Of a stretch of DNA of 64,000 nt, positions 16,140-49,097 are shown in pieces. The notes beneath the pieces were generated by a model. That model worked only from the letters and a program-made list of their open reading frames with translations, did not search any database and was not told the DNA's origin. The position numbers and the translations under genes are program-made. The number at the start of each line of letters is the position of its first letter. The first letter of the stretch is position 1. The stretch comes from Nitrospirota bacterium (GTDB lineage Bacteria; Nitrospirota; JACRHL01), in assembly GCA_029881725.1 (NCBI GenBank), contig JAOUMB010000005.1, positions 1 through 64,000 of the forward strand. The letters run 5' to 3'.

Positions 16140-16636
16140 CCCCGTTTGCCCGCTGGCTTTTGTTCGGGTTTGTGGTCATGGGGGCGATTCCCCTGCAGGT
16201 GAGAATTCTGCCGGCGTTGCTGCCGGATGCGTGGGTGCCGCACCTGGGGCTGGTCACCGCGTTCCTGTGCGGGCTGTTGCTGGGAGAGGGGCCGGGGGTG
16301 ATTGTGGGGTTTGCCCTGGGGCTGTTGTACGACCGCTTCACCGCCGGGCAGGTCGGTCTGCATCTGGTGCTGTTGCCGTTGGTGGGGGTGGGTGCCGGGT
16401 TGCTGCCGCGGTTGCTTCCGGAGATGCTGTTTTCCCAGCAGGTCATGTTATTGGCGGTGTTCATGCTGCTGGCGGAGTTGTTCGGTGCGGTGCTGTATCA
16501 CATGGCCGGGGTGGTCCGGTTTGATGGCTGGCTGGTGCTGTATCAGTTGATTCCCGCAGTGCTGTCGAACCTGCTTGTGGGCGGTGCGTTGCTGGTTTAC
16601 GCCAGTTCCGGCCGCCGTCGCCGGTGGTCCTCGTGA
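16136..16636 (+). CDS. mreD: Rod-shape protein MreD
   Basis: A small integral membrane protein of the elongasome, 166 residues with about five hydrophobic helices. The family is poorly conserved, so the call rests on position between mreC and mrdA, size, hydrophobicity and the segment LGEGPGVIVGFALGLLYDRFT, which resembles the MreD core. It starts with GTG in a 4-base GTGA overlap with mreC. Confidence 0.92.
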   Translation: MTPFARWLLFGFVVMGAIPLQVRILPALLPDAWVPHLGLVTAFLCGLLLGEGPGVIVGFALGLLYDRFTAGQVGLHLVLLPLVGVGAGLLPRLLPEMLFSQQVMLLAVFMLLAELFGAVLYHMAGVVRFDGWLVLYQLIPAVLSNLLVGGALLVYASSGRRRRWSS

Positions 16637-18513
16637 TTCCGCTGGAGCGGGAAAACCTGGGGTGGTCGGTGCGCGGCCGGGTGGCGTTGACCACCGGGCT
16701 GATTTTGCTTGGCTTCCTCTTGTTGGTCTCGCGAAGTTGGTATCTGCAGGTGCTGCACCACGAAAAATACATGCGCCTGGCCACCAACAATAAGGTGCGT
16801 GAGGTGGCCGAGTCCCCGGACCGGGGGCTGGTGTTCGACCGCATGGGCCGTCCTTTGGTTACCAATGTTCCGACCTTTTCCCTAGCTCTGGTGCTGGACG
16901 ACGTGAAGGATCTGGAGGCCACCAGCAACCGGGTGGGGGAACTGCTCGGCATCGACACCGAAAAAATCCGCGAACAAGCCCGCAAACAGCGGCGACGCGT
17001 TCCCTATGTGCCGGTGACCGTGCATCAGGACCTGACCCTTTCCCAGGTGGCCGATATTGAGTGGGCGCGAATCCCCGGCGTGCGGGTGATCGCCGAAACC
17101 CGGCGCCATTACCCTTACGGGAAGGCGGCGGCGCACCTGCTGGGATATGTGGGTGAGATCACCGAAAAGCAGTTGTCCTCCAATGCGTATGCCGAGGTGC
17201 TGCCGGGCAGTCGGGTGGGCCAGTACGGTTCCGAGCGCACATTTGATGCGCCGTTGCGCGGCGTGCCGGGCAGCCGCCAGATCGAGGTGGACGCGCAGGG
17301 CTTCGAGGTGCGCGAAATCAGCCGGGTTCCCCCGATAGTGGGCAACGACGTCTATCTATCGATTGACATCGAAGTGCAGAAGGCCGCCGAACAGGCGCTT
17401 GGAGACCGTCCCGGCGCGGTGGTGGCGCTGGATCCGAACAATGGAAAGGTGCTGGCGTTGGCCAGTTATCCTGCCTTCGATCCCGAGGAGTTGGCCAAAG
17501 GGGTCAACTCCAAACGGTGGCAGGAGATTTCCACAAATCGCAGGAAACCCATGTTCAACCGGGTAGTGCAGGGCACCTACCCTCCTGGCTCCGTGTTCAA
17601 GATTCCGGTGGCGGCGGCCATCCTGGAGACCTTGCGGGGAGGGCAGGAGCGGTTCTGCGTGGGGGAGCACAAGTTCCTGGATCGGACTTTCCGCGACTGG
17701 AAAAAGACCGGCCATGGCATGGTTGGACTGCGCCAGTCGCTGATCGAAAGCTGTGACGTTTACTTCTATCAGTACGGGGACGAACTGGGGGTGGATACCA
17801 TTGCCAAGTATGCCACCATGTTTGGACTGGGGCAGGTGACCGGTATCGATCTGGCCGGAGAGGCGAAAGGCCTGGTTCCCTCCACCCAGTGGAAAATGGC
17901 CGACCGCGGAAAGATCTGGTATCCGGGTGAGACCCTGTCGGTGGCGATCGGTCAGGGCTACGTGAGTGCCACGCCACTGCAAATGGCCGACCTTCTCGCT
18001 GCCGTTGCAGTGAACGGCAAGCGCTTCAGACCTACGATCCGGCTGGGGGTATGGGACAGCATGGCGGACGGTTTGCTGGTAGACGAGCCGGACCCGTTGC
18101 CGACCGTGGCCTTGGCGGAAAACACCTACAAGGTACTGAAGAGCGCCCTTACCGGCGTGGTGTGGGATGCCAAGGGCACCGCCCGCTCGGCCCGCTCCAA
18201 GAAGGTGACCATTGCCGGTAAGACCGGTACCGCTCAGGTTGTTTCAATGGCGGAGGGCGATCAGGATGTGGATGAGAAGGACATCCCCATCCGCCACCGG
18301 GATCATGCCTGGTTTGCCGCCTTTGCCCCGGTGGAGGATCCGCACATTGCGGTGGCGGTGCTGGTGGAGCACGGTGGACACGGCGGCTCCGCCGCCGCGC
18401 CGGTAGCGCGTCAGGTGATCGAGGCCTACATGGGGGCCCGAGAAAAGTCCCCCCAGGGTGAGGAACTGTACCGGGTTCTTGAGGAACTGCACCGGGAGCG
18501 GGAGGCCACCTGA
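16633..18513 (+). CDS. mrdA: Penicillin-binding protein 2 (peptidoglycan transpeptidase)
   Basis: The class B penicillin-binding protein that cross-links peptidoglycan during elongation. It has 626 residues. An N-terminal membrane anchor (about 20-40) is followed by the PBP dimerisation domain (NKVREVAESPDRGLVFDR) and the transpeptidase domain with SVFK (active serine, in GTYPPGSVFK), SCD and GKTGTAQV. I chose GTG at 16633 because it makes a GTGA overlap with the mreD stop, as at the mreC-mreD junction; GTG at 16624 would add three residues. It works with RodA, encoded next. Confidence 0.96.
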   Translation: MIPLERENLGWSVRGRVALTTGLILLGFLLLVSRSWYLQVLHHEKYMRLATNNKVREVAESPDRGLVFDRMGRPLVTNVPTFSLALVLDDVKDLEATSNRVGELLGIDTEKIREQARKQRRRVPYVPVTVHQDLTLSQVADIEWARIPGVRVIAETRRHYPYGKAAAHLLGYVGEITEKQLSSNAYAEVLPGSRVGQYGSERTFDAPLRGVPGSRQIEVDAQGFEVREISRVPPIVGNDVYLSIDIEVQKAAEQALGDRPGAVVALDPNNGKVLALASYPAFDPEELAKGVNSKRWQEISTNRRKPMFNRVVQGTYPPGSVFKIPVAAAILETLRGGQERFCVGEHKFLDRTFRDWKKTGHGMVGLRQSLIESCDVYFYQYGDELGVDTIAKYATMFGLGQVTGIDLAGEAKGLVPSTQWKMADRGKIWYPGETLSVAIGQGYVSATPLQMADLLAAVAVNGKRFRPTIRLGVWDSMADGLLVDEPDPLPTVALAENTYKVLKSALTGVVWDAKGTARSARSKKVTIAGKTGTAQVVSMAEGDQDVDEKDIPIRHRDHAWFAAFAPVEDPHIAVAVLVEHGGHGGSAAAPVARQVIEAYMGAREKSPQGEELYRVLEELHREREAT

Positions 18514-19637
18514 TGTTCACCGTCGATCGCAGACTGTTTATTCATATGGATTGGCGGCTGGTGGGGTTGATTGCCGCCATTCTGTTTGTCGGGATTACCA
18601 CTATCTATTCGGTAACCGACCAATGGTCCCATGGGGGCGCCCCCCTGTTTCTCAAGCAGATGATCTGGGCGGTGGCCGGACTGATGGTGTTTACCGTTCT
18701 GGCGGCATTTGATTACCATCGCCTGCTGGGCTATGCCCACTACATTTTTGGCTTCTCAATCTTGTTGCTGACGGCCGTGCTGGTGCTGGGCAAGGTAGGC
18801 ATGGGGGCTCAGCGCTGGGTGCAGGTGGGTGGGCTCAACATCCAGCCGTCGGAACTGGCCCGGCTTGCGGTGGTGCTGTTGCTGGCCAGATATCTGGCCG
18901 ACAGGGTGCCTCCGGAAGGATTTCGCTTTCGTGATATGTTGATCCCCTCGGCGTTCGCGTTTATCCCGTTTGTGCTGGTTCTCAAGCAGCCGGATCTGGG
19001 TTCGGCGTTGATGATTTTGTTCGTGTTTGGGGTGATGCTGCTGATCTCCGGTGTTCATCCGCGCTCGTTGATGACCGGTGGTCTGTCCGGGCTACTGGTG
19101 CTGCCGTTCTTCTGGGAGTGGTTCTGGAACAGCCTGCACACCTATCAACGCAATCGGCTGGTCACTTTTTTCAACCCGGAAGCCGATCCGCTGGGTACCG
19201 GCTACCACGTGATCCAGTCTAAAATTGCAATCGGTGCGGGTGGCATAGCCGGCCAGGGATTCCTGCAGGGCAGTCAGAGTCAGCTGAAATTTCTTCCCGA
19301 GGGGCATACGGACTTTATCTTCGCGGTGTTTGCCGAGCAGTGGGGTTTTCTGGGGGTACTGGTATTGATTTCCCTGTTCGCCGCGCTGATCTGGCGCGGC
19401 ATGGACACCGCCATGAAGGCAAAGGATCTGGAGGGCACGCTGCTTGCAGCCGGGATCACTTGCATGCTAACCTTCTACGTTTTTGTGAACCTGGCCATGA
19501 CCCTCGGCATGGCGCCGGTGGTCGGAGTGCCGTTGCCGCTCATGAGTTATGGCGGGACGGCGCTGGTGACCACCATGGCGGCCCTGGGCATTCTGGCCAA
19601 TGTTCATCTCCAGCGGCACATCAGCCTGTACCGTTAG
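18513..19637 (+). CDS. rodA: Peptidoglycan glycosyltransferase RodA
   Basis: A SEDS-family polymerase that polymerises lipid II in the elongasome, 374 residues with about ten membrane helices. Recognisable blocks are VGMGAQRWVQVGGLNIQPSE, KQPDLGSALMI, the periplasmic loop with FLPEGHTDFIFAVFAEQWGF, and the C-terminal GVPLPLMSYGGTALVTTM. Its ATG overlaps the mrdA stop by one base, so RodA and PBP2 should be made together. Confidence 0.97.
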   Translation: MFTVDRRLFIHMDWRLVGLIAAILFVGITTIYSVTDQWSHGGAPLFLKQMIWAVAGLMVFTVLAAFDYHRLLGYAHYIFGFSILLLTAVLVLGKVGMGAQRWVQVGGLNIQPSELARLAVVLLLARYLADRVPPEGFRFRDMLIPSAFAFIPFVLVLKQPDLGSALMILFVFGVMLLISGVHPRSLMTGGLSGLLVLPFFWEWFWNSLHTYQRNRLVTFFNPEADPLGTGYHVIQSKIAIGAGGIAGQGFLQGSQSQLKFLPEGHTDFIFAVFAEQWGFLGVLVLISLFAALIWRGMDTAMKAKDLEGTLLAAGITCMLTFYVFVNLAMTLGMAPVVGVPLPLMSYGGTALVTTMAALGILANVHLQRHISLYR

Positions 19638-19676
19638 TCCGCGCCGGGCGATCGGCGCCGTTCCGGCCGCCCCAAC

Positions 19677-22409
19677 ATGAGACCTACCCCACATATCGAC
19701 TTGGAGAACCTCCCCGCTCCCGATCTCGACCGCTATGCGCTGTTGTCGTCCGTGGCGCGTCCGTCCCGCTATATCGGGGGTGAGGTCAACGCCGACCACA
19801 AGTCGTGGGATGAGGTAGACGTGCGGATGGCGCTGGTGTTTCCGGATGCCTACGAGATCGGCATCTCCAACATGGGGCTGCAGATCCTGTACCGGATCGT
19901 CAACAGCCGCACCGACGCGCTGGCGGAGCGGGCCTATGCCCCATGGCCCGACTACGAGAAGGCCCTGCGCAAAAAGGGGCGGCGGCTCACCGCACTGGAG
20001 AGCGAACGGCCCCTTTCCGATTTTGACATTCTGGGGATCACCATCCCCTATGAGTTGACCTTCACCAACATCCTCGCGGTAATTGATCTGGCGGGAATTC
20101 CCCTGCGTGCGGAACAGCGGCAGGCGCATCACCCCATGGTCATTGGTGGTGGGGCTTCGGTCTACAATCCGGAGCCGCTGGCCCCATTTTTCGACGCCTT
20201 TGTCATTGGCGACGGGGAAGAGGTGGTGCATGAACTGCTTGATACCGTGCGCGATTGGCGCCGTTCCGGAGGCACCCGCGCAGAAGGACTGATTGCGCTG
20301 GCACGCATCCCTGGCGTCTATGTGCCGTCCCTGTATCAGGTGATCCATCATGCGGACGGACGGGTGGCCGAAATTCGCAGCATGGATCCGGCTCCAGCCG
20401 CAGTGAACCGAAGGGTGGTGGCGGATCTGGACGGGGCGTTCTATCCCACCGATCCGGTGCTGCCTACCGCCCGCGCGGTATTCGATCGGATCAGCGTGGA
20501 GGTAACGCGCGGCTGCACTCACGGATGTCGTTTTTGTCAGGCCGGTTATACCTACCGCCCGGTGCGTGAACGCTCACCGGAGCGGGTGCGTGATCTGGTG
20601 TTGAACTCCCTGGAACAAACCGGTCTGGACCAGGTTTCGCTGGCGTCCCTGTCCACCGGCGACTACCTGTGCCTGTATCCGCTGCTCAAGGATCTGGTGG
20701 ACCGCACCGGCGACCGGGGGATTGCCTATTCCCTGCCGTCCCTGCGCATCGGCACCCTGACTCCGGCAGTTGTGCGCCAGATCAAGCGGGTCACCAAAAC
20801 CGGCTTTACCATGGCCCCGGAGGCGGGCACCGAGCGCATGCGCCAGGTGATCAACAAGCCCATCTCCGAGTCCGATTTGCTGGCCGCGGTGCAGAACGTG
20901 TTTGCAGAGGGGTGGCCGGAGATCAAGTTCTATTTCATGTACGGCCTGCCCACCGAGGAAATCGAAGACCTGGACGGCATAGTGCGCCTGGCGCAGGCGG
21001 CACTGGCGGTGGGGCGAAAACTGGGCGGCAAAATGCGCAACGTAAAGGTGAGTACTTCGGTTTATGTGCCCAAGCCCATGACGCCGTTCCAGTGGATCGG
21101 CCAGATGCCGATGGACGAGGTGGGCCGCCGCCGCCGACACCTGCGTGAGCAGTTCCGCCACGTGCGCGGTGCGCGCTTCACCTGGAAGGACGAGCGGGTG
21201 TCACGATTGGAGGCGGTGTTCTCCCGGGGCGACCGGCGGCTTGCTGCGGTGGTGGAGGAGGCGTTCCGGCGCGGCATCCGCATGGACGCCTGGGAGGAAA
21301 TGATTGATCCCGACGCCTGGGAGGCGATCTTCGAACGGTTCGGTATTGACCCGGACTTTTACGCCCTGCGCGAAATTCCCACCGACGAGATATTGCCGTG
21401 GGACATGCTCGATTGCGGGACCAGCAAGGAGTACTTCGCGTCCGACCTGGCCCGCGCCTTGCGTGAACGGACCATTAAGGACTGTCGCTACGGCCTGTGT
21501 GGCGATTGCGGGGTGTGTACCGCACCGGAATCCGGCCCGCTGGTGGTGCCCCGGGTATACGTGCCCGAGGGGGAACGCGCCGAGGAGTTCAATCTTCCGC
21601 TCACCGAGGATGCGGTTAACCATCCGCTGGTTCCCGAGTTGACCCCGATTGCTCCGGAGTCTCTGGTTCCGGAGACGTCCTCGCAAGGGCGCTTCCCCAT
21701 GCGCGTGCGGTGGACCAAGCTTGGCTCGATCGCCTTTCTGTCCCACCTGGAAGTGCTGGCCCTGTTCGCTCGCGTGGTACGCCGTGGGGGCATTCCGGTG
21801 GCTCTGAGCGAGGGGCACCATCCCCGCCCGCGCCTCTCTTTTGGCCCGGCCCTGGCGCTGGGCGCGGAGAGCACCAGCGAGGTAATGGACCTGCTGCTCA
21901 CCCGGCCCATGGATGCCGCAGAACTCTGCGACCGGATGAACGGCGCCCTGCCGGAGGGATTGATTGCGCTGGAGGCGGTGCCGGTACCCCAGGGGGGACG
22001 CTCCCTGGCGTTGGATGACGTGATATATGTTTATGAACTGCGCTGGAAAGGCGGCCTTCCGCAGGGTCTGGATGTGCGTGTGGCAGAATTCCTGGCGCGG
22101 GACAGCGCTATGGTCACCCGTCTGGATAAAAAAGGGCGCAGCCGTCAGATGGACGTGCGTGCCCTGCTTCGATTGTTGAAATTTCAGTCTGATCACTTGC
22201 TGATGGCCTTGGGGTCCGATAGATCACGCACCTGCCGGGTTGCCGAGGTGCTGGAGGAGATGGGGGTCGCCGATCCGGAAAATCCGGTCCATATGCGGCG
22301 GGTCGGACTGATGTATGCTGATGGGGAGCGCGTTTACCACTTGATGGACCCGGCGCGCCAAAACCCCGATTTTTTGGACTTTGACCTGCAGGCCATTACG
22401 TGTCACTAG
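19677..22409 (+). CDS. Radical SAM protein (TIGR03960-type) fused to a DUF2344 domain
   Basis: A 910-residue two-part protein. The N-terminal 190 residues resemble a B12-binding-like domain (VFPDAYEIGISNMGLQILY). The radical SAM core has the iron-sulfur motif CTHGCRFCQAG near residue 282, and a later CRYGLCGDCGVC cluster may hold another metal centre. From about residue 680, MRVRWTKLGSIAFLSHLE and SEGHHPRPRLSFGPALALG mark a DUF2344 (TIGR03936) domain, often a separate gene elsewhere. The reaction is unknown. Its last 10 bases overlap rng, and this neighbourhood is conserved in other bacteria, suggesting a link to RNA or ribosome maturation. Confidence 0.9.
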   Translation: MRPTPHIDLENLPAPDLDRYALLSSVARPSRYIGGEVNADHKSWDEVDVRMALVFPDAYEIGISNMGLQILYRIVNSRTDALAERAYAPWPDYEKALRKKGRRLTALESERPLSDFDILGITIPYELTFTNILAVIDLAGIPLRAEQRQAHHPMVIGGGASVYNPEPLAPFFDAFVIGDGEEVVHELLDTVRDWRRSGGTRAEGLIALARIPGVYVPSLYQVIHHADGRVAEIRSMDPAPAAVNRRVVADLDGAFYPTDPVLPTARAVFDRISVEVTRGCTHGCRFCQAGYTYRPVRERSPERVRDLVLNSLEQTGLDQVSLASLSTGDYLCLYPLLKDLVDRTGDRGIAYSLPSLRIGTLTPAVVRQIKRVTKTGFTMAPEAGTERMRQVINKPISESDLLAAVQNVFAEGWPEIKFYFMYGLPTEEIEDLDGIVRLAQAALAVGRKLGGKMRNVKVSTSVYVPKPMTPFQWIGQMPMDEVGRRRRHLREQFRHVRGARFTWKDERVSRLEAVFSRGDRRLAAVVEEAFRRGIRMDAWEEMIDPDAWEAIFERFGIDPDFYALREIPTDEILPWDMLDCGTSKEYFASDLARALRERTIKDCRYGLCGDCGVCTAPESGPLVVPRVYVPEGERAEEFNLPLTEDAVNHPLVPELTPIAPESLVPETSSQGRFPMRVRWTKLGSIAFLSHLEVLALFARVVRRGGIPVALSEGHHPRPRLSFGPALALGAESTSEVMDLLLTRPMDAAELCDRMNGALPEGLIALEAVPVPQGGRSLALDDVIYVYELRWKGGLPQGLDVRVAEFLARDSAMVTRLDKKGRSRQMDVRALLRLLKFQSDHLLMALGSDRSRTCRVAEVLEEMGVADPENPVHMRRVGLMYADGERVYHLMDPARQNPDFLDFDLQAITCH

Positions 22410-23932
22410 AAATTCTGATCAACGCAACCCGCGAGGAAACCCGTGTCGCCCTGCTGGAGGGGGACCAGGTACAACAGGTATTCAACGAGCGCACCAAGGA
22501 GCGGGGCATCGTCGGCAACATCTACAAGGGCAAGGTGCTGCGGGTGTTGCCCGGCATGCAGGCCGCGTTTGTGGATATTGGGTTGGACAAGAGCGCTTTT
22601 CTGTACGTGGGAGACGTGCTGGATCCGGACAAACGCTACGAGGATCTGGTCGGTGGTGGCGGTGACGACGAGGAGATCAGCCGGGGGCCGCGTGAGGGGC
22701 GCCGCTCCCGGGCTGCCGGTCGGCCCATCGAGGCGCTGCTTCGCTCAGGCGACGAAATCATTGTGCAGGTTTCCAAGGAGCCGATTTCCACCAAGGGTCC
22801 CAGGGTGACCATGTATGTCTCGCTGCCGGGGCGCTACCTGGTGTTCATGCCGGGCATCCGCCACGTGGGCATCTCCCGGCGCATCGGCTCCGACCGTGAA
22901 CGCCGCCGCCTGCGTGAGATTGTGGACAACCTGGCTACCACCAACGGTGGTTACATCGTGCGCACAGTGAGCACCGGCGTGCCAGAGGAGGAGTTTGCCT
23001 CCGACATGGGCTTTCTGGAACTGTTGTGGGCCAACATCCTCAAGAAATGGCAGTACCTGAAGGCCCCGTGCCTGCTGCACATGGATCTGGACCTGACCTT
23101 CCGCGCCGTGCGCGATATGTTCACGCCGGACGTGGACCGGTTGGTCATCGACAACAAGGCGTACTTCGACCGGATCATGGACTTTCTGGAAACCTATCTG
23201 CCCAGCGTGGCTGACCGGGTATTTCTGTATGAAGGGCCACAGCCGTTGTTCGAGTATTTCAACATCGAGGCGGAGCTGTCCCGGGGACTTGGCAAGCGCG
23301 TATGGCTGAAGAGTGGCGGTTACATCATCATCGAGACCACCGAGGCGCTCACGGTGATCGATGTAAACACCGGTCGTTACGTGGGTAAGACCGGCAGCCT
23401 GGAAGACACCATTACCAAGACCAATCTGGAGGCGGTCAAGGAGATCGCGCACCAGCTCAAGTTCCGCAACATTGGCGGAATCATCATCATCGACTTTATC
23501 GATATGGACGAGGCCGGCAATCGGGACAAGGTGTTCCAGACCCTGCAACAGGCCGTCTCAACCGATAAGGCGCGCATCAACCTGTACCGAATGAGTGAAT
23601 TGGGTCTGGTGGAGATGAGCCGCCAGCGCAAGCGGGAAAACCTGGAGCAGCTGCACTGCGAGGCGTGCCGTTACTGCGACGGGCGGGGCATCACCAAGAG
23701 CCCAACCACCATTGCCTATGAACTGTTCCGCGAGGTGCGCGCCAGCGCCGCCCAGCGCGAGGCCAAGACCCTGGTGCTTTCGGTGCATCCGGCGGTGGCC
23801 GATGTGCTGATGGGGGAGGACCGGGGCAACCTGGACGCCCTCAAGGCCGAAGTGCGCAAAGATCTGGTGGTTAAGGCCGACCGCCGCCGCCACCTGGAAG
23901 AATACGAAATCCAGCAGGCTCGACAGGGCTGA
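22400..23932 (+). CDS. rng: Ribonuclease G/E family endoribonuclease
   Basis: A single-strand-specific endoribonuclease processing rRNA and mRNA, 510 residues, RNase G-sized without the long RNase E scaffold tail. An N-terminal S1 domain (about 38-125) contains GIVGNIYKGKVLRVLPGMQ. The catalytic core has IDVNTGRYVGK and the metal-binding IIIIDFIDMD. The zinc-link cysteines are in CEACRYCDGRG. It starts at GTG 22400, inside the end of the radical SAM gene. It may divide the work of RNA decay with RNase Y. Confidence 0.95.
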   Translation: MSLEILINATREETRVALLEGDQVQQVFNERTKERGIVGNIYKGKVLRVLPGMQAAFVDIGLDKSAFLYVGDVLDPDKRYEDLVGGGGDDEEISRGPREGRRSRAAGRPIEALLRSGDEIIVQVSKEPISTKGPRVTMYVSLPGRYLVFMPGIRHVGISRRIGSDRERRRLREIVDNLATTNGGYIVRTVSTGVPEEEFASDMGFLELLWANILKKWQYLKAPCLLHMDLDLTFRAVRDMFTPDVDRLVIDNKAYFDRIMDFLETYLPSVADRVFLYEGPQPLFEYFNIEAELSRGLGKRVWLKSGGYIIIETTEALTVIDVNTGRYVGKTGSLEDTITKTNLEAVKEIAHQLKFRNIGGIIIIDFIDMDEAGNRDKVFQTLQQAVSTDKARINLYRMSELGLVEMSRQRKRENLEQLHCEACRYCDGRGITKSPTTIAYELFREVRASAAQREAKTLVLSVHPAVADVLMGEDRGNLDALKAEVRKDLVVKADRRRHLEEYEIQQARQG

Positions 23933-23973: not shown

Positions 23974-24987
23974 TCAGGGCGTGACAGATACCGGTACGGC
24001 TTCGACCTGAGAGTCCAGCGGCTGGATTACGATATGGGCCTCGCGGCGCAGACCGGCCATCCATTCATCGGTACGCCGGGCGACCGCTTCCCGGGTGCCC
24101 AATTCCCGAACCGTATCGGCAATGGCCTCAAACGGCGCTGGCGGGTTGCGGCTGACCTCCTGAGCCAGAAACAGGGCGATCCCCGCGGGCAGGCTTACCA
24201 ATTCGCTGACCTGCCCGGCTTCCAGCCGGTGCACGGCGGCAGCCAGTTCGGGGCGCAGGTCCCCCAATGAAAAGGTGCCGATTTCCCCGGCGGAAATACC
24301 CGGTGTCCCGGCAAGTCGTTCTTCAGCGGCCAGGAAGGCGTCGGTGCCGGTTATTTCCCGGGACAGGGTTTCCATCTGCAACCGGGCCGCTTCCCGGTCG
24401 TCCGCGGACAGTCCCGCAAAAATCACCTGGATTTGCCTCAGGCGCATGGTTGGCGGGGGGGAAAAGGCGTCCGTGTGTGCATCGTAAAACTGCCGGACCT
24501 CCGCATCACTCAGTTGCACCCGGGCACGCACCTCACGCTGGGTGACCCGTCCCAAGGTCATCTGATCCTGGATCTCGCGGCGAAAGGCCTTCAGTTCCTT
24601 GCCTTCGGCTGCCAGCGCGGCCTCCAGATCCGAAAGTTTGGTCAGTCCGTTGTTGTGCATGATCTCGCGCAGCGCGCCTTCCACCGCTTCCGGGGTGGCC
24701 GCCACCCCCAGTTCCCGTGCCCGCTGAAGCTGAAGGCGCTGGTCGATCAGGTGTGAGAGCAGCGCTTCCCGATCCGGCAGCAACATGGCCAGTTGCGGAT
24801 CCTGCTGCACCTGCCCCCACATTTCGTCAAGTTCCGAAAGGGTGATGGCCTGATTCCCCACCACGGCGGCAATCCGATCGATGACGGTGGCGCGGCCGAC
24901 GGCGGGAGCCGTCAGAAGCAGCAGGAAAACGAGAGGCAGCCAGTGGGCCGGACGCGGGAATGTCATGTGCATGGCGATGGGGTTCAT
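23974..24987 (-). CDS. surA: SurA-like periplasmic chaperone/peptidyl-prolyl isomerase
   Basis: A secreted foldase of 337 residues that helps outer-membrane proteins cross the periplasm. The signal peptide (LPLVFLLLLTAPAVGRA) is followed by the SurA N-domain (VIDRIAAVVGNQAITLSEL, IDQRLQLQRARELGV) and one parvulin-like domain (about 190-290, MRLRQIQVIF), then a C-terminal helix. E. coli SurA has 428 residues and two parvulin domains, so this is the one-domain form. The start is uncertain: ATG at 24987, 24972 or 24966 all fit, none with a Shine-Dalgarno. TATAAT at 24985-24990 overlaps the first of them and may be the promoter -10. Confidence 0.85.
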   Translation of the reverse strand: MNPIAMHMTFPRPAHWLPLVFLLLLTAPAVGRATVIDRIAAVVGNQAITLSELDEMWGQVQQDPQLAMLLPDREALLSHLIDQRLQLQRARELGVAATPEAVEGALREIMHNNGLTKLSDLEAALAAEGKELKAFRREIQDQMTLGRVTQREVRARVQLSDAEVRQFYDAHTDAFSPPPTMRLRQIQVIFAGLSADDREAARLQMETLSREITGTDAFLAAEERLAGTPGISAGEIGTFSLGDLRPELAAAVHRLEAGQVSELVSLPAGIALFLAQEVSRNPPAPFEAIADTVRELGTREAVARRTDEWMAGLRREAHIVIQPLDSQVEAVPVSVTP

Positions 24988-25011
24988 TATAAGGAGGGGG
25001 GATAACGAAAA

Positions 25012-25040
25012 CGGGGCGGCCCCTTTTGAGGGCCGCCCCG
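25012..25040 (-). terminator. Rho-independent terminator after the 34-residue gene
   Basis: A perfect 11-bp stem (25012-25022 with 25030-25040), almost all G and C, with a 7-base loop. Read on the minus strand it is followed by TTTTCGTT. It separates the small membrane-peptide gene from surA. Confidence 0.8.
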
Positions 25041-25064
25041 TGTCGGTTTCGTGGGCTTGTGGGG

Positions 25065-25169
25065 TTAGACCCGCGGCCAGCTTCCGCCGCCTTCGGCGAA
25101 CATGAAAATGGTGATCAGGATGCCCACTGCGATGCAGGCCCACACAATCCCGTCGTGATTTGCTTTCAT
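25065..25169 (-). CDS. 34-residue single-span membrane peptide, unknown
   Basis: A very small gene with ATG at 25169, AGGGAGAC 8 bases upstream, and TAA at 25065-25067. The product has a short charged N-terminus (MKANHDG), a hydrophobic stretch IVWACIAVGILITIFMFA that would span the membrane once, and a C-terminal EGGGSWPRV. The clean ribosome site and the strong terminator immediately downstream support a real, independently transcribed gene. I do not recognise the family; the layout recalls small subunits or regulators of membrane complexes. Confidence 0.65.
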   Translation of the reverse strand: MKANHDGIVWACIAVGILITIFMFAEGGGSWPRV

Positions 25170-25455
25170 TCTTTTGTCTCCCTAGTCTCGCGCACCCCGG
25201 GCCCCGCGGTGGCACGGATGGTCCGTTAACCCGCTCCGCTCCGATTGGCGCTGTTTCCCGGTCGCAAGCGCTTCCGGCCACACCTCTGTTCCTGCCCGCG
25301 CGCGCCGCCGGTTTCCGGCGACTGGTCCGGGGCCGGGTTTTTGCCCGCCCGACGGCCCCGGCCACAAAAAGCACTTGCGCTCCGGCTCGGCGGAACTGTA
25401 AACAAATCACAGGGGGATGTCAACGTTGAGCTCGCGCGACTTTGTGGAGAGTTTT
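25170..25455. other. Divergent spacer, no gene seen
   Basis: GC-rich sequence between the 34-residue minus-strand gene and the DUF2065 gene. It must carry the promoters of both, but no convincing -35/-10 pair is visible. Open frames here are GC-driven. Confidence 0.4.
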
Positions 25456-25659
25456 ATGGGATGGCGTGACCTGCTCATTGGAATTGGTTTTCTGTTGCTT
25501 TTTGAAGGGCTGCCCCTGTTCGCCGCGCCTGGAGCGTATCGCAGGGTGGCCCGTCAAATCGACGCGATTCCGGAAGCCGTGTTGCGGGGGGCCGGGTTCC
25601 TGGCGTCCGCAATTGGATTGGTCGTTCTTTATACAGTTTTTTTGGGAGGTGTGGATTGA
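25456..25659 (+). CDS. DUF2065 (YjeT-like) small membrane protein
   Basis: A 67-residue protein with two hydrophobic helices: GWRDLLIGIGFLLLFEGLPL near the N-terminus and VLRGAGFLASAIGLVVLYTV near the C-terminus, joined by a basic loop (YRRVARQIDAIPE). This is the DUF2065/YjeT pattern, inner membrane, function unknown. I chose ATG at 25456, with GGAG 6 bases upstream and the first helix starting at once; upstream in-frame sequence to 25417 adds a polar stretch not seen in the family. In many Proteobacteria the gene sits near hflK-hflC, but not here. The trxA promoter overlaps its stop. Confidence 0.85.
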   Translation: MGWRDLLIGIGFLLLFEGLPLFAAPGAYRRVARQIDAIPEAVLRGAGFLASAIGLVVLYTVFLGGVD

Positions 25660-25817: not shown

Positions 25818-26138
25818 ATGGGTGCAGTTGCGGTCAATTCGGCCGAATTCGAATCGGAAGTTCTTCAGGCCGACACTTTGGTGATGGTCGATTTTTGGGC
25901 CCCTTGGTGCGGCCCGTGCAAAATGATCGCTCCCACTGTGGAAGCGTTGGCGGAAGAGTATGCCGGTCGTTGCAAGGTGGTGAAGGTGAACACCGATGAA
26001 AATCAGGATGTTGCCACCCGCTACCAGGTGATGGGCATTCCCACGCTGTTGTTCATCAAGGGCGGGCAGCCGGTGGACAAGGTGGTGGGAGCCGCGTCGA
26101 GCCAGCAGTTGAAGGACAAGATCGAGGCCCACCTGTAA
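25818..26138 (+). CDS. trxA: Thioredoxin
   Basis: A cytoplasmic dithiol reductant of 106 residues with the active site WCGPC (C31 and C34) and the cis-proline segment MGIPTLLFIKGG. ATG at 25818 has AAGGAGAG 8 bases upstream. It has its own promoter and a following terminator, so it is monocistronic. It is a plausible electron donor to the B12-dependent ribonucleotide reductase encoded at 43550-46306. Confidence 0.97.
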   Translation: MGAVAVNSAEFESEVLQADTLVMVDFWAPWCGPCKMIAPTVEALAEEYAGRCKVVKVNTDENQDVATRYQVMGIPTLLFIKGGQPVDKVVGAASSQQLKDKIEAHL

Positions 26139-36831: not shown

Positions 36832-37632
36832 TCACCCGAACACCATAAACAGGCCGACCACGATCAGGAGCAGGATAAACAGCCTGCGCAGCGCTCGTGC
36901 GGGCAGCCGGTGGGCCACCCGGGCGCCAAGCGGGGCAAACAGCACGCTGGTGAGGCCAATGGCGGCCAGTGCCGGAAACGACACGTAGCCGGCACTGAAC
37001 GGCGGCAGGTCAGGCGTGGAGGCGCCCATCGCGGCAAATCCCAGGGCCCCGAACAGGGCGATGGGAAAGCCGCAGGCGGACGATACCGGCACCGCGCCGT
37101 GGATGGGCGTATGGCGGTGTAACAGGTAGGGCACCGTGAGGGAGCCGCCGCCAATGCCCACAATGGCGGAAACCGCGCCAATCAGTCCGCCAATGGTCCG
37201 CGACAATGGAAGCGGTGCCGCGTCAGCGGTGGCGCGGGGTGCGGTGACCAGTGTCATCTGGGCCGCCATGAGCAGCGCGAATCCCCCCACGCACGCCTTC
37301 AGGGCCGGTCCCGGCAGCCGGCTGGCCAGCACGGCCCCCAGAAGGGCGCCAAAGGCCACGGAAGGGGCGAATTCCCGTACCCGGGGCCAAGGCACTTTCC
37401 CCAATCGATGATGGGCCCGTACGGCGGCCAGGGATACAAATACGATGATCGCCAGCGAGGTGCCCACCGCCAGATGGACGCGCACCTCCTCCGGCACCGC
37501 CAGCAGGGTGAACACCACGGTCAGCGTGGGTACGATCACCAGCCCGCCGCCGACACCGAAGAGGGCGCCGATGAACCCGGCAAAGGCCCCGGCCCCCAGA
37601 CACAGCAGGATCAGCGTGCCCGCGTCGGTCAT
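36832..37632 (-). CDS. TauE/SafE family sulfite/anion exporter-like permease
   Basis: A 266-residue membrane protein with about eight helices and the duplicated family motif: GFIGALFGVGGGLVIVPTL near the N-terminus and GLIGAVSAIVGIGGGSLTVP in the middle. Members export sulfite or organosulfonates, or act on other anions. Its ATG overlaps the stop of the HTH-ArgA gene by 4 bases, so it is co-transcribed with that gene, an unexpected partner for an arginine-biosynthesis enzyme. Confidence 0.9.
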   Translation of the reverse strand: MTDAGTLILLCLGAGAFAGFIGALFGVGGGLVIVPTLTVVFTLLAVPEEVRVHLAVGTSLAIIVFVSLAAVRAHHRLGKVPWPRVREFAPSVAFGALLGAVLASRLPGPALKACVGGFALLMAAQMTLVTAPRATADAAPLPLSRTIGGLIGAVSAIVGIGGGSLTVPYLLHRHTPIHGAVPVSSACGFPIALFGALGFAAMGASTPDLPPFSAGYVSFPALAAIGLTSVLFAPLGARVAHRLPARALRRLFILLLIVVGLFMVFG

Positions 37633-39236
37633 CCCCGGGCCCCCCGCAACGGTTTGCGGTAGATGCGGGAACCGCGCTTGTAGTTGTACAGGGCCTGGCG
37701 CTCCACCGGCAGGTCCGAGGGCTCGGCGGGTTCAAAACCGTGCTCCAGAAACCAGTGGGCGGTCTGGGTGGTCAGGGCGAACAGGTGGGTAAAGCCCCGC
37801 GCCACGGCCAGCCGTTCGATCTGGGACAGCAGTTCGGTGGCGCGCCCGGATTTCTGGTAATCGGGATGCACCACCATGCAGGCCAGTTCCGCCACTTTTT
37901 CCCTTGGAAATGGATGCAGCGCGGCGCAGGCGAGAACGGTTCCGTCCCGCTCGGCCACCAGGAAGGAGTCGATTTCCCGTTCCAGTTGCTCCCGGGAACG
38001 GCGCACCAGCACTCCGGCGTTCTCCAGCGGGACGATCAGGCTGATGATGCCAGCCAGATCGTCCAGGTTGGCTTTGCGCAGGGTTTCGTAACGGTTGGCG
38101 GACAGCATGGTCCCGCACCCGTCGCGGGTGAACAGCTCAGTCAGCAGCGCGCCGTCCAGGGAGTGGTCGAGCAGGTGACCGCGGGTGACACCGGCATCCA
38201 CGGCGTCAATCAGGGCGGACAGGGGTTCGGCGTCCGGCAGGGAGGGGAGCAGGGCGCGCGCCGCGTCCAGGGAAAGCTCGGAGGGCAGGGAGGCGGTGTC
38301 GCCGGAAGAGAAGCCCCGCTGGGCCAGGACGATGAGCTTGCGGGCGTGCAATTTGGAAGCGACGGTGCCCGCCACGTCATAGGACGATAGGTTGAAAATC
38401 TCGCCGGTGATGGAGTAGCCCACCGGGGGGATCAGCACCACCGTTTGATTGTTCAGCAGGGTGTTGATGGCGTCCGCGTCAACCCGGCGCACAGTGCCGG
38501 TGTGGTGGTAGTCCACCCCGTCCCGAATGCCGATCGGGCGGGAGGTGAGGAAATTGCCGGAGGAGACCCGCACATTGAATCCAGCCATGAGGGACGTTGG
38601 CAGCGAGGTGGTAAACAGCGCCTCGATCTGGGTGCGCACCGAGCCGGAAGCCTCCAGCAGGGCGGGAACTGCCTCCGGTGGAGTGACCCGGTAGGCACCG
38701 TGAAAGGAGGCATTGACGTTGGAGCGGGACAGACGCTCGGAAAGCTGGGGGCGGATTCCGAAAACAATGACCACCCGGATGCCCAGGGTGTGCAGCAGCG
38801 CAATATCGTGGATCAACGATGTAAAGAATGGGGAAGCCAGCGCTTCACCGGGAAAGTGGACGACAAAGGTGGAGCCCCGGTGAGCGTGGATATAGGGGGA
38901 CGCGGAGCGAAAAAACGAAACGAAAGGCGGAACTGCGGAAGCGGGTTGTTCGGCAACCGGAGGGGGACTCATGGTGTCCGGATAGGGGAGGTCGGGACGC
39001 AGCAGGCTGGGATGAATGGCAAAAATGGAGGCAAGCCGCAATGCCATTTCGGCGCTGATACGGGTTTTTCCGTGAAGGAATTGGCTGATGGCGCCCTGGG
39101 TGGTTCCGATCTGGCTGGCCAGGTCTGCTTGCGAAGGGCGGGTGCCGGTTTGTTTCGCAACGGTATCCTGCCAATCGCGAAATAAAGCGATGAAACTCTG
39201 CGCTGACAGGTCGCTTGTTTGGCTGTTGCTGGGCAT
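37629..39236 (-). CDS. argA: N-acetylglutamate synthase with an N-terminal XRE-type HTH domain
   Basis: A 535-residue fusion. Residues about 15-85 are a Cro/CI-type helix-turn-helix (SQADLASQIGTTQGAISQFL then HGKTRISAEMALRLASIFAI). From about 105 the classical ArgA follows: the amino-acid-kinase-like regulatory domain (GIRVVIVFGIRPQLSERL, LIPPVGYSITGEIFNLSSYD) and a C-terminal GNAT domain (CMVVHPDYQKSGRATELL, YNYKRGSRIYRKPL). It makes N-acetylglutamate, the first step to arginine. E. coli ArgA has 443 residues and no such domain. There is no stop or frameshift between the domains; Met89 could give a second, HTH-free product. argE lies just upstream, with the TauE gene downstream. Confidence 0.9.
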   Translation of the reverse strand: MPSNSQTSDLSAQSFIALFRDWQDTVAKQTGTRPSQADLASQIGTTQGAISQFLHGKTRISAEMALRLASIFAIHPSLLRPDLPYPDTMSPPPVAEQPASAVPPFVSFFRSASPYIHAHRGSTFVVHFPGEALASPFFTSLIHDIALLHTLGIRVVIVFGIRPQLSERLSRSNVNASFHGAYRVTPPEAVPALLEASGSVRTQIEALFTTSLPTSLMAGFNVRVSSGNFLTSRPIGIRDGVDYHHTGTVRRVDADAINTLLNNQTVVLIPPVGYSITGEIFNLSSYDVAGTVASKLHARKLIVLAQRGFSSGDTASLPSELSLDAARALLPSLPDAEPLSALIDAVDAGVTRGHLLDHSLDGALLTELFTRDGCGTMLSANRYETLRKANLDDLAGIISLIVPLENAGVLVRRSREQLEREIDSFLVAERDGTVLACAALHPFPREKVAELACMVVHPDYQKSGRATELLSQIERLAVARGFTHLFALTTQTAHWFLEHGFEPAEPSDLPVERQALYNYKRGSRIYRKPLRGARG

Positions 39237-47400: not shown

Positions 47401-48291
47401 ATGTTCCAGGGAAGCATTGTCGCGCTGGCGACGCCATTTGACGCCGACGGAGGGCTGGACGAGCGACGCCTGGCGGAACTGGTGGAGTGGCACGTGGATC
47501 AGGGCACCCACGGCATCGTGCCGTGCGGCACCACAGGCGAATCGGCCACCCTGAGCCACGGGGAGCACCTGCGGGTGGTGGAGATCTGCGTGGAAACGGC
47601 GGCGGGGCGGGTACCGATCATCGCGGGGACCGGCTCCAACTCCACCTCCGAGGCCATCACGTTGACCCGTCGCGCCAAGGAGGCCGGGGCCGACGCGGCA
47701 TTGCTGATCGCCCCCTATTACAACAAGCCCACCCAGGAGGGGCTGTTTCGCCACCATCAAGCGATTGCCGAGGCGGTGGACATTCCTCAGGTGCTGTACA
47801 ACGTGCCGGGTCGCACCGTGGTGAACATGGCGCCCGAAACGGTGGAGCGACTGTGCGCGTTCGACAACATCGTGGCCATCAAGGAGGCCACCGGCTCGGT
47901 GGCGGTGACCGGCGAGATCATCCGCCGCTGCGGCGACCGCATGGCGGTTATTTCCGGCGACGACTTTTCCAACCTGGGGCTGCTGGCCATGGGTGCGGTG
48001 GCGGCCATTTCGGTTACCGCGAACATCGTGCCGGCGGACATGTCGGCCATGTTCAATGTCTGGGACAAGCACGACTTCGGCCGGGCCCAGGAGTTGCACT
48101 ATCAGATGATTCCGCTGCACACGGCCATGTTCATCGAAACCAGCCCGATTCCGGTCAAGACCGCCCTGGCCATGATGGGGCGTATCGGCGAGCAGTTGCG
48201 GCTGCCCCTGTGTCCTATCGGCGAGGCCAACCGGGAAGTGCTGCGGGAAACTCTGGCCGACTACGGTCTGCTCAAGGAGCGCGCGGCATGA
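47401..48291 (+). CDS. dapA: 4-hydroxy-tetrahydrodipicolinate synthase
   Basis: Condenses pyruvate with aspartate semialdehyde, the first committed step to diaminopimelate and lysine. 296 residues. The start motif MFQGSIVALATPF, the threonine pair in PCGTTGES, the tyrosine in LYNVPGRT and the Schiff-base lysine in IVAIKEATGS are all present. ATG 47401 fits the family start and has GGAG upstream; GTG 47389 would add four residues. It begins the dapA-dapB-folK-panC unit, its stop overlapping dapB. Confidence 0.97.
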   Translation: MFQGSIVALATPFDADGGLDERRLAELVEWHVDQGTHGIVPCGTTGESATLSHGEHLRVVEICVETAAGRVPIIAGTGSNSTSEAITLTRRAKEAGADAALLIAPYYNKPTQEGLFRHHQAIAEAVDIPQVLYNVPGRTVVNMAPETVERLCAFDNIVAIKEATGSVAVTGEIIRRCGDRMAVISGDDFSNLGLLAMGAVAAISVTANIVPADMSAMFNVWDKHDFGRAQELHYQMIPLHTAMFIETSPIPVKTALAMMGRIGEQLRLPLCPIGEANREVLRETLADYGLLKERAA

Positions 48292-49097
48292 GCGCGGTAC
48301 GGGTTGCCATCACCGGCGCCGCCGGACGCATGGGACAGCGGCTGGTGGCTCTGACCCATCAGGGCGAGCACACGGTGGTCACCGGCGCTACCGAGGTCAG
48401 CACCCACGGCAAGATCAAGCACGACGCGGGACTGGTAGCGGGGATCGGCGAGATCGGGGTGACCATCAGCCCGTCCCTGGCGTTGGACATCGGCCGCGCG
48501 GACGTGGTCATCGACTTTTCCTCGCCGGAGGCCACCGTGGCTCACGCCCGCATTGCGGGCGAGGCGCGGGTGCCGATGGTGATCGGCACCACCGGCATGT
48601 CCACCGAGCAGGCGGCGGCGGTGGCGTCCGCCATGGAGGGGCTGGCCTACGTGAAGGCACCCAACTTCAGCGTGGGGGTCAATCTGGTGCTCAAGCTGTT
48701 GAGCACCGCCGCCAGCATCCTGTCCGACGAATACGACATCGAGGTGGTGGAAATGCACCACCGGCACAAGGTGGACGCCCCCTCCGGCACCGCCCTGCGC
48801 ATGGCCGAGGTACTGGCCGAGGCACGCGGGGTGAGCCTGGAAACCCACGGCGTATACGCCCGTCACGGCCATACCGGGGCCCGTTCGCGCGGCACCATCG
48901 GCATGCAGACCCTGCGCGGCGGCGACGTGGCCGGGGACCATACGGTGATTTTCGCCGCCGACGGCGAGCGGGTGGAAATCGGCCACCGGGCGTCCGGGCG
49001 GGACACCTTTGCCAGCGGCGCCATTCGCGCCGCCCGCTGGGTGGTGGCGCAAACGAAGCCCGGCCAGTACGACATGGCCGACGTCCTCGGCCTGTAG
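48288..49097 (+). CDS. dapB: 4-hydroxy-tetrahydrodipicolinate reductase
   Basis: The next enzyme of the diaminopimelate pathway, reducing the dapA product with NAD(P)H. 269 residues. The nucleotide site is VAITGAAGRMGQRL; the catalytic block is MHHRHKVDAPSGTALRMAE; the segment DVVIDFSSPEATVAH is also conserved. The start at 48288 has AAGGAG upstream and overlaps the dapA stop by 4 bases. Confidence 0.97.
   Translation: MSAVRVAITGAAGRMGQRLVALTHQGEHTVVTGATEVSTHGKIKHDAGLVAGIGEIGVTISPSLALDIGRADVVIDFSSPEATVAHARIAGEARVPMVIGTTGMSTEQAAAVASAMEGLAYVKAPNFSVGVNLVLKLLSTAASILSDEYDIEVVEMHHRHKVDAPSGTALRMAEVLAEARGVSLETHGVYARHGHTGARSRGTIGMQTLRGGDVAGDHTVIFAADGERVEIGHRASGRDTFASGAIRAARWVVAQTKPGQYDMADVLGL

Follow-up and report, generated by a model that had tools for sequence, protein, structure and literature searches.

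A conserved 34-codon reading frame for a predicted single-pass membrane protein upstream of surA in one lineage of Nitrospirota

Does a 34-codon open reading frame directly upstream of surA encode a protein, and what might such a protein do? The frame lies in a stretch of 64,000 nucleotides (the window) from a Nitrospirota genome (G000; 2.96 Mb, 126 contigs, 98% complete). Despite this completeness, a search for 16S rRNA in the assembly gave no match (0/1; 9/14 controls positive). The Nitrospira 16S probe Ntspa662 matched 6/118 genomes of the phylum, all six from one family (f9), in keeping with Nitrospirota. An initial annotation of the window had described the frame as a stand-alone gene for a membrane peptide, with its own ribosome site and terminator. 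It had also suggested an envelope role, from the neighbouring surA. The features of the locus are collected in Table 1.

Table 1 Features of the small gene locus in the window.
Feature	Position	Strand	Evidence
Small gene ORF, 34 codons, predicted single-pass membrane protein	25065..25169	-	ORF/translation, conservation, predicted helix
surA, SurA_N plus one parvulin domain	23974..24966	-	SurA_N 1.4e-17, Rotamase_2 1.2e-11
Intrinsic terminator between small ORF and surA	25011..25041	-	13 pairs, 11 G-C, then TTTTCG
Inferred 5' untranslated leader, ~219 nt	25170..25388	-	Promoter-like site and ATG positions; start near 25388 inferred
Sigma-70-type promoter-like site, TTGACA-N17-TACAGT	25395..25423	-	Consensus scan, 10/12 matches
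DUF2065 small membrane protein, divergent neighbour	25456..25659	+	PF09838 6.2e-14; in-frame start also at 25417
trxA, thioredoxin, divergent neighbour	25818..26138	+	PF00085 2.1e-35

The predicted protein and the selection acting on it

Positions 25169 to 25065 of the minus strand hold the frame, a strand that the initial annotation had left unstated. The product of the frame in the window genome is MKANHDGIVWACIAVGILITIFMFAEGGGSWPRV. The ribosome site AGGGAG (25178–25183, minus strand) is separated from the ATG by 8 bases. The predicted protein has a single hydrophobic span, with a best 17-residue Kyte-Doolittle mean of 2.72. AlphaFold2, run on a four-row alignment, gave one helix at residues 3–27 (mean pLDDT 77). 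The earlier description as a single-span membrane peptide gene with its own ribosome site agrees with these results, and we infer that the protein inserts into the membrane.

We compared the window genome with G001, G002 and G003. Together these four are all the genomes of the family, and all those of the class, that were examined, and each represents a separate genus. The small gene was present in all four. The protein of G003, MKKNMDGIVWACIAWGIVVTIFMFVEGGGIWPRG, was 76% identical to that of the window, the protein of G001, MAELSGPEKDKIMWIIIAVGIVLVVFSFGMTEGTFR, 38%, and the protein of G002, MDTGTKDRIMWIITGIGVAICVFALTTEGTFR, 26%. The most divergent of these, in G002, was recovered at 9.4e-5 by a profile made without the G002 sequence. 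Across the four proteins the best 17-residue hydropathy ranged from 2.43 to 2.96, and seven columns of the four-row alignment were invariant (M1, D6, I8, W10, G16, F22 and G29).

Selection was assessed on one pair, G000 and G003, the closest two genera, the other pairs being near saturation. The two ORFs differed by 23 base changes, 5, 6 and 12 of them at the first, second and third codon positions, and these led to 8 amino-acid changes. The Nei-Gojobori estimates were 0.165 for dN and 0.847 for dS, a dN/dS of ~0.19. When the same changes were placed at random on the G000 sequence, they caused on average 14.4 amino-acid changes, and a result as conservative and free of stops came up in only 3 of 20,000 placements. 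The initial annotation had named beforehand equal synonymous and non-synonymous change in relatives as evidence against the gene; in this one genome pair the change was mostly synonymous, and the small protein appears to be under purifying selection.

Conservation was unevenly spread over the locus. G000 and G003 were identical at 81/105 positions of the small ORF vs 92/201 aligned positions of the leader, at 22/40 of the promoter stretch and at 26/37 of the terminator stretch. Since identity is high in the ORF and low in the leader and promoter stretch, what has been kept is the protein, with the promoter hexamers and the hairpin, and not the RNA as a whole. This bears on the reading of the frame as a chance ORF within a conserved non-coding RNA, for which a promoter-like site and a terminator do bracket a transcript of ~380 nt. 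The ORF is conserved while the leader is not, and its changes are biased to synonymous ones. The inferred transcript folded no better than shuffled sequences (z -0.96), and no Rfam family reached its gathering score, the one match being at chance level (E 0.087). We consider a non-coding RNA extremely unlikely, largely refuted already by the selection results, and the small gene almost certainly a real protein-coding gene.

Gene order and a possible transcription unit with surA

In all four family genomes the small gene was upstream of surA on the same strand, trxA was divergent on its other side, and RNase G was convergent to surA. The adjacency to surA claimed for the window thus holds throughout the family, as does the presence of a short ORF upstream of surA in relatives, which the initial annotation had proposed to search for. 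Start codon candidates for surA in the window are 24966, 24972 and 24987, and the choice among them is uncertain. The NCBIfam SurA model scored 70.8 bits against this gene, well under its cut-off of 394 bits.

A DUF2065 gene was also found in the matching place in G001 (PF09838 1.1e-15) and G002 (7.6e-17). In the G003 neighbourhood tblastn did not find it; there the distance from trxA to the small gene promoter is only ~290 bases. Ahead of surA the window carries a cell-shape cluster (16624–23932, plus strand) with mrdA (PBP2), rodA, a TIGR03960/TIGR03936 radical SAM protein and RNase G. The shape genes mrdA and rodA (16624–19637) are further from the small gene than surA is.

Among 30 RNase G loci, with flanks of up to 1.5 kb, surA was beside RNase G only in the four family genomes. 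Among the 80 of 565 RNase G matches listed for the window gene, the best identity was 48%. In three genomes of another family (f6; G008, G017 and G025), RNase G and a SurA-like gene share a contig and are 4.5 to 4.7 kb apart. This spacing, outside the 1.5 kb flanks, is a looser form of the window neighbourhood and counts against a strict family-only reading of it.

Two other loci of the window were recorded. A frame of 536 aa at 47487–49097 (plus strand) matched DapB with residues 271–534, and its first 270 residues had no Pfam match at a limit of 1e-8. This could reflect a fusion, or an open frame extending far upstream. At 37629–39236 (minus strand), an amino acid kinase and a GNAT domain were found in one protein, an arrangement also present in fused N-acetylglutamate synthase.

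The promoter scan of the region gave 2 matches vs 0.2 expected. A promoter-like motif for the small gene was found by the standard scan at the equivalent place in G003 and G001. For G002 the motif TTGACT-N18-TACCGT, absent from the standard scan list, came from a looser pattern used without a shuffle control. The hexamer pattern common to the four genomes is TTGAC-N17/18-TAC.GT. A plus-strand terminator-like hairpin (25313–25341) lies just ahead of the DUF2065 gene, where antisense transcription through surA and the small gene could be stopped.

The strong terminator described close behind the small ORF was confirmed, its stem beginning 24 bases past the stop. A hairpin folds after the small ORF in 4/4 genomes, at varying distances from the stop. 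The scan listed it as a terminator in G000, G003 and G002; the G001 hairpin, with a weak T run, was unlisted. From the small gene stop to the best surA start codon there are 98 (G000), 134 (G003), 89 (G001) and 72 (G002) bases, and from the hairpin to the best surA ATG 44, 60, 38 and 22 bases, respectively. The latter gap has just enough room for a sigma-70 promoter in G000, G003 and G001, and clearly none in G002. No promoter was listed there in any of the four genomes by the standard consensus scan, the same scan that missed the small gene's promoter in G002. By inspection, the window has a TATAAT at 24991–24986, just before surA, with no -35 match 17 bases upstream.

Because the gap between hairpin and surA is short and no promoter was listed in it, surA is perhaps transcribed by leakage through the terminator. 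The description as a stand-alone gene therefore stands in part. The ribosome site, the promoter-like site and the terminator are the small gene's own, but only 22 to 60 bases separate the hairpin from surA, and the scan listed no promoter in this interval. The small gene and surA probably form one transcription unit with an internal terminator. We hold with moderate confidence that at least part of surA expression would come from read-through, and that the small protein would be in excess.

The same arrangement could be that of an attenuator, in which the small ORF is a leader peptide, inert in itself, that together with the hairpin regulates surA. A hairpin between ORF and surA in 4/4 genomes, followed by no listed promoter, would suit such a device. 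An inert peptide does not account for purifying selection on the amino-acid sequence or for the conserved predicted membrane span. In addition, inspection found no run of regulatory codons in the small ORF, the predicted minimum-energy fold (window sequence only) had no pairing that competes with the terminator, and the stop-to-stem distance is not constant among genomes. We regard an attenuator as unlikely and retain the reading of a functional small protein sharing a unit with surA.

Distribution outside the family

A three-row profile was searched over 395 genomes of the phylum, a sample from a larger set, with matches taken at E up to 1, and at least 145 of the 395 genomes had a match. Among the profile matches listed there was no convincing homologue of the small gene outside the family. 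The best three outside-family matches listed (2.4e-4, 4.9e-4 and 7.4e-4) lay within frames of 587, 421 and 414 aa in one genus and were judged to be chance membrane-helix likeness.

SurA-like matches were found in 40/41 genomes. Thirty stored SurA loci were screened for an upstream ORF that is small and hydrophobic and has a ribosome site; SurA paralogues with lower scores, and genomes with no locus kept, lay outside this set. One locus (L195) had no alignment, leaving 29. Such an ORF was found at 4/4 family loci and at 0/25 outside. An earlier screen with a first-start rule had missed G003 and had given one weak outside ORF (L177, GTG start) that dropped out in the second screen.

Pfam, NCBIfam and PHROGs gave only below-cut-off or chance-level matches for the small protein. 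The G001 and G002 proteins scored 17.8 and 15.2 bits (E 0.002 and 0.013) with an NCBIfam pilin-like conjugal-transfer family that has a cut-off of 40 bits, which we read as membrane-helix likeness. The PHROGs matches had E values of 0.11 and up. By these searches the small gene appears specific to one class-level lineage; it is an unnamed family, new as a family and ordinary in kind.

A short hydrophobic peptide behind a long leader might also be a type I toxin, or a small membrane peptide of mobile or phage origin such as a holin, and two of the proteins do touch the pilin-like family, though far under its cut-off. Several results speak against such an origin. The gene is single-copy in the window genome (next match at E 1.2), keeps a fixed place in four genera and evolves under purifying selection. 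The charge of the protein, by inspection, is near-neutral. The window protein, the one searched against plasmid and phage sequences, had no match there, and PHROGs adds only chance-level ones. No antisense promoter was listed over the small gene by the consensus scan, which is weak evidence. We consider a toxin or mobile peptide very unlikely.

Possible roles and comparison with known small proteins

We propose that the locus is a unit of promoter, small ORF, hairpin terminator and surA, whose first gene would encode a 34-residue single-pass inner-membrane protein. The hairpin would end most transcripts, giving much small protein, and a minority may read through and supply surA. The helix of the small protein would pack against a larger inner-membrane complex, steadying or tuning it, with contacts made via the invariant Asp, Ile, Trp, Gly and Phe and the C-terminal Gly. 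We consider it evenly balanced whether the small protein is a helper of a membrane complex. The whole model, in which a small protein peculiar to this lineage partners an inner-membrane complex and its gene forms a unit with surA, is the most likely of the readings weighed here and is offered tentatively. An envelope-building complex or a cbb3-type oxidase would be our guess for the partner.

The case for an envelope role is guilt by association, through the neighbour surA and, further off, mrdA and rodA. A general envelope role is unlikely, judging from the families sampled, since outside its own family there was no trace of the small gene. More specifically, the small protein could be an inner-membrane partner of outer-membrane protein assembly that docks SurA or its clients as they leave the translocon, the leaky terminator setting the ratio. 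If so, it would be made in large excess from a promoter shared with surA. To our knowledge SurA has no small membrane partner, and a weak search of literature titles and abstract openings showed none. We consider this docking role improbable.

What the locus offers is an unnamed small-protein family, supported by sequence, in a bacterial lineage that has been little studied. Small proteins that are conserved and keep the same neighbours offer good starting points for working out function. The place of this one ahead of surA, with a hairpin in between in 4/4 genomes, suggests a simple and testable tie between a small membrane protein and the folding of outer-membrane proteins.

Alternatively, the small protein might work as CcoM, CydX or YnhF do, as an orphan small subunit in a respiratory oxidase. 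Heme-copper oxidase subunit I (COX1) was found in 4/4 family genomes, and in the window genome, where FixO was checked, COX1 adjoins a FixO subunit. The small gene is not beside oxidase genes, however, and none of the four small proteins matched an oxidase family in Pfam at E up to 1. CydA was found in 0/4 family genomes vs 10/14 positive controls, G002 being only 91% complete; because of this absence the bd branch is unlikely. We judge an oxidase subunit to be rather unlikely overall.

The cbb3-like oxidase locus of the window genome (L199:295–3623, contig C81) encodes COX1 and a short FixO-like subunit and is flanked by small ORFs. Four of these were scanned, two of them mutually overlapping, and Pfam gave nothing for them at E up to 0.01.

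Accessory parts of membrane complexes are among the known single-helix proteins of this size, and several small subunits resemble the predicted protein in part. KdpF is a small single-span accessory subunit, and the small protein is likewise small and single-span. KdpA, in contrast, was found in 0/4 family genomes vs 5/14 positive controls, which makes a KdpF-type role unlikely. CcoM is small and encoded at a separate locus, a small oxidase subunit that was identified late since it had not been annotated as one. In this the small protein may be like it, but the four-row profile matched no solved chain in the PDB at E up to 10. As a heme-copper oxidase was detected in 4/4 genomes with the small gene, a role like that of CcoM is possible. 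CcoM has been named as a subunit of the cbb3 oxidase of Pseudomonas stutzeri, and YnhF as a small subunit of bd oxidase, in PMC9264385.

CydX, CydY and YnhF share with the small protein its small size and one helix (PMC4325964, PMC9264385). For CydX and CydY, PMC4325964 reports a conserved Trp at the helix start; the size, the single span and the Trp near the helix start of the small protein match these reports. They differ in that the small gene is not beside cydAB. Membership in CydX / YbgT_YccB is unlikely: none of the four proteins matched that Pfam family at E up to 1, and CydA was found in 0/4 genomes.

For the proposed unit itself, internal terminators that lower the expression of downstream genes have been measured in an archaeon (PMC10450193). 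Those operons are archaeal and their effect was measured, whereas the window unit is read from sequence. The likeness lies in unequal expression, the gene ahead of the internal terminator exceeding the one behind it, as we would expect for the small gene and surA.
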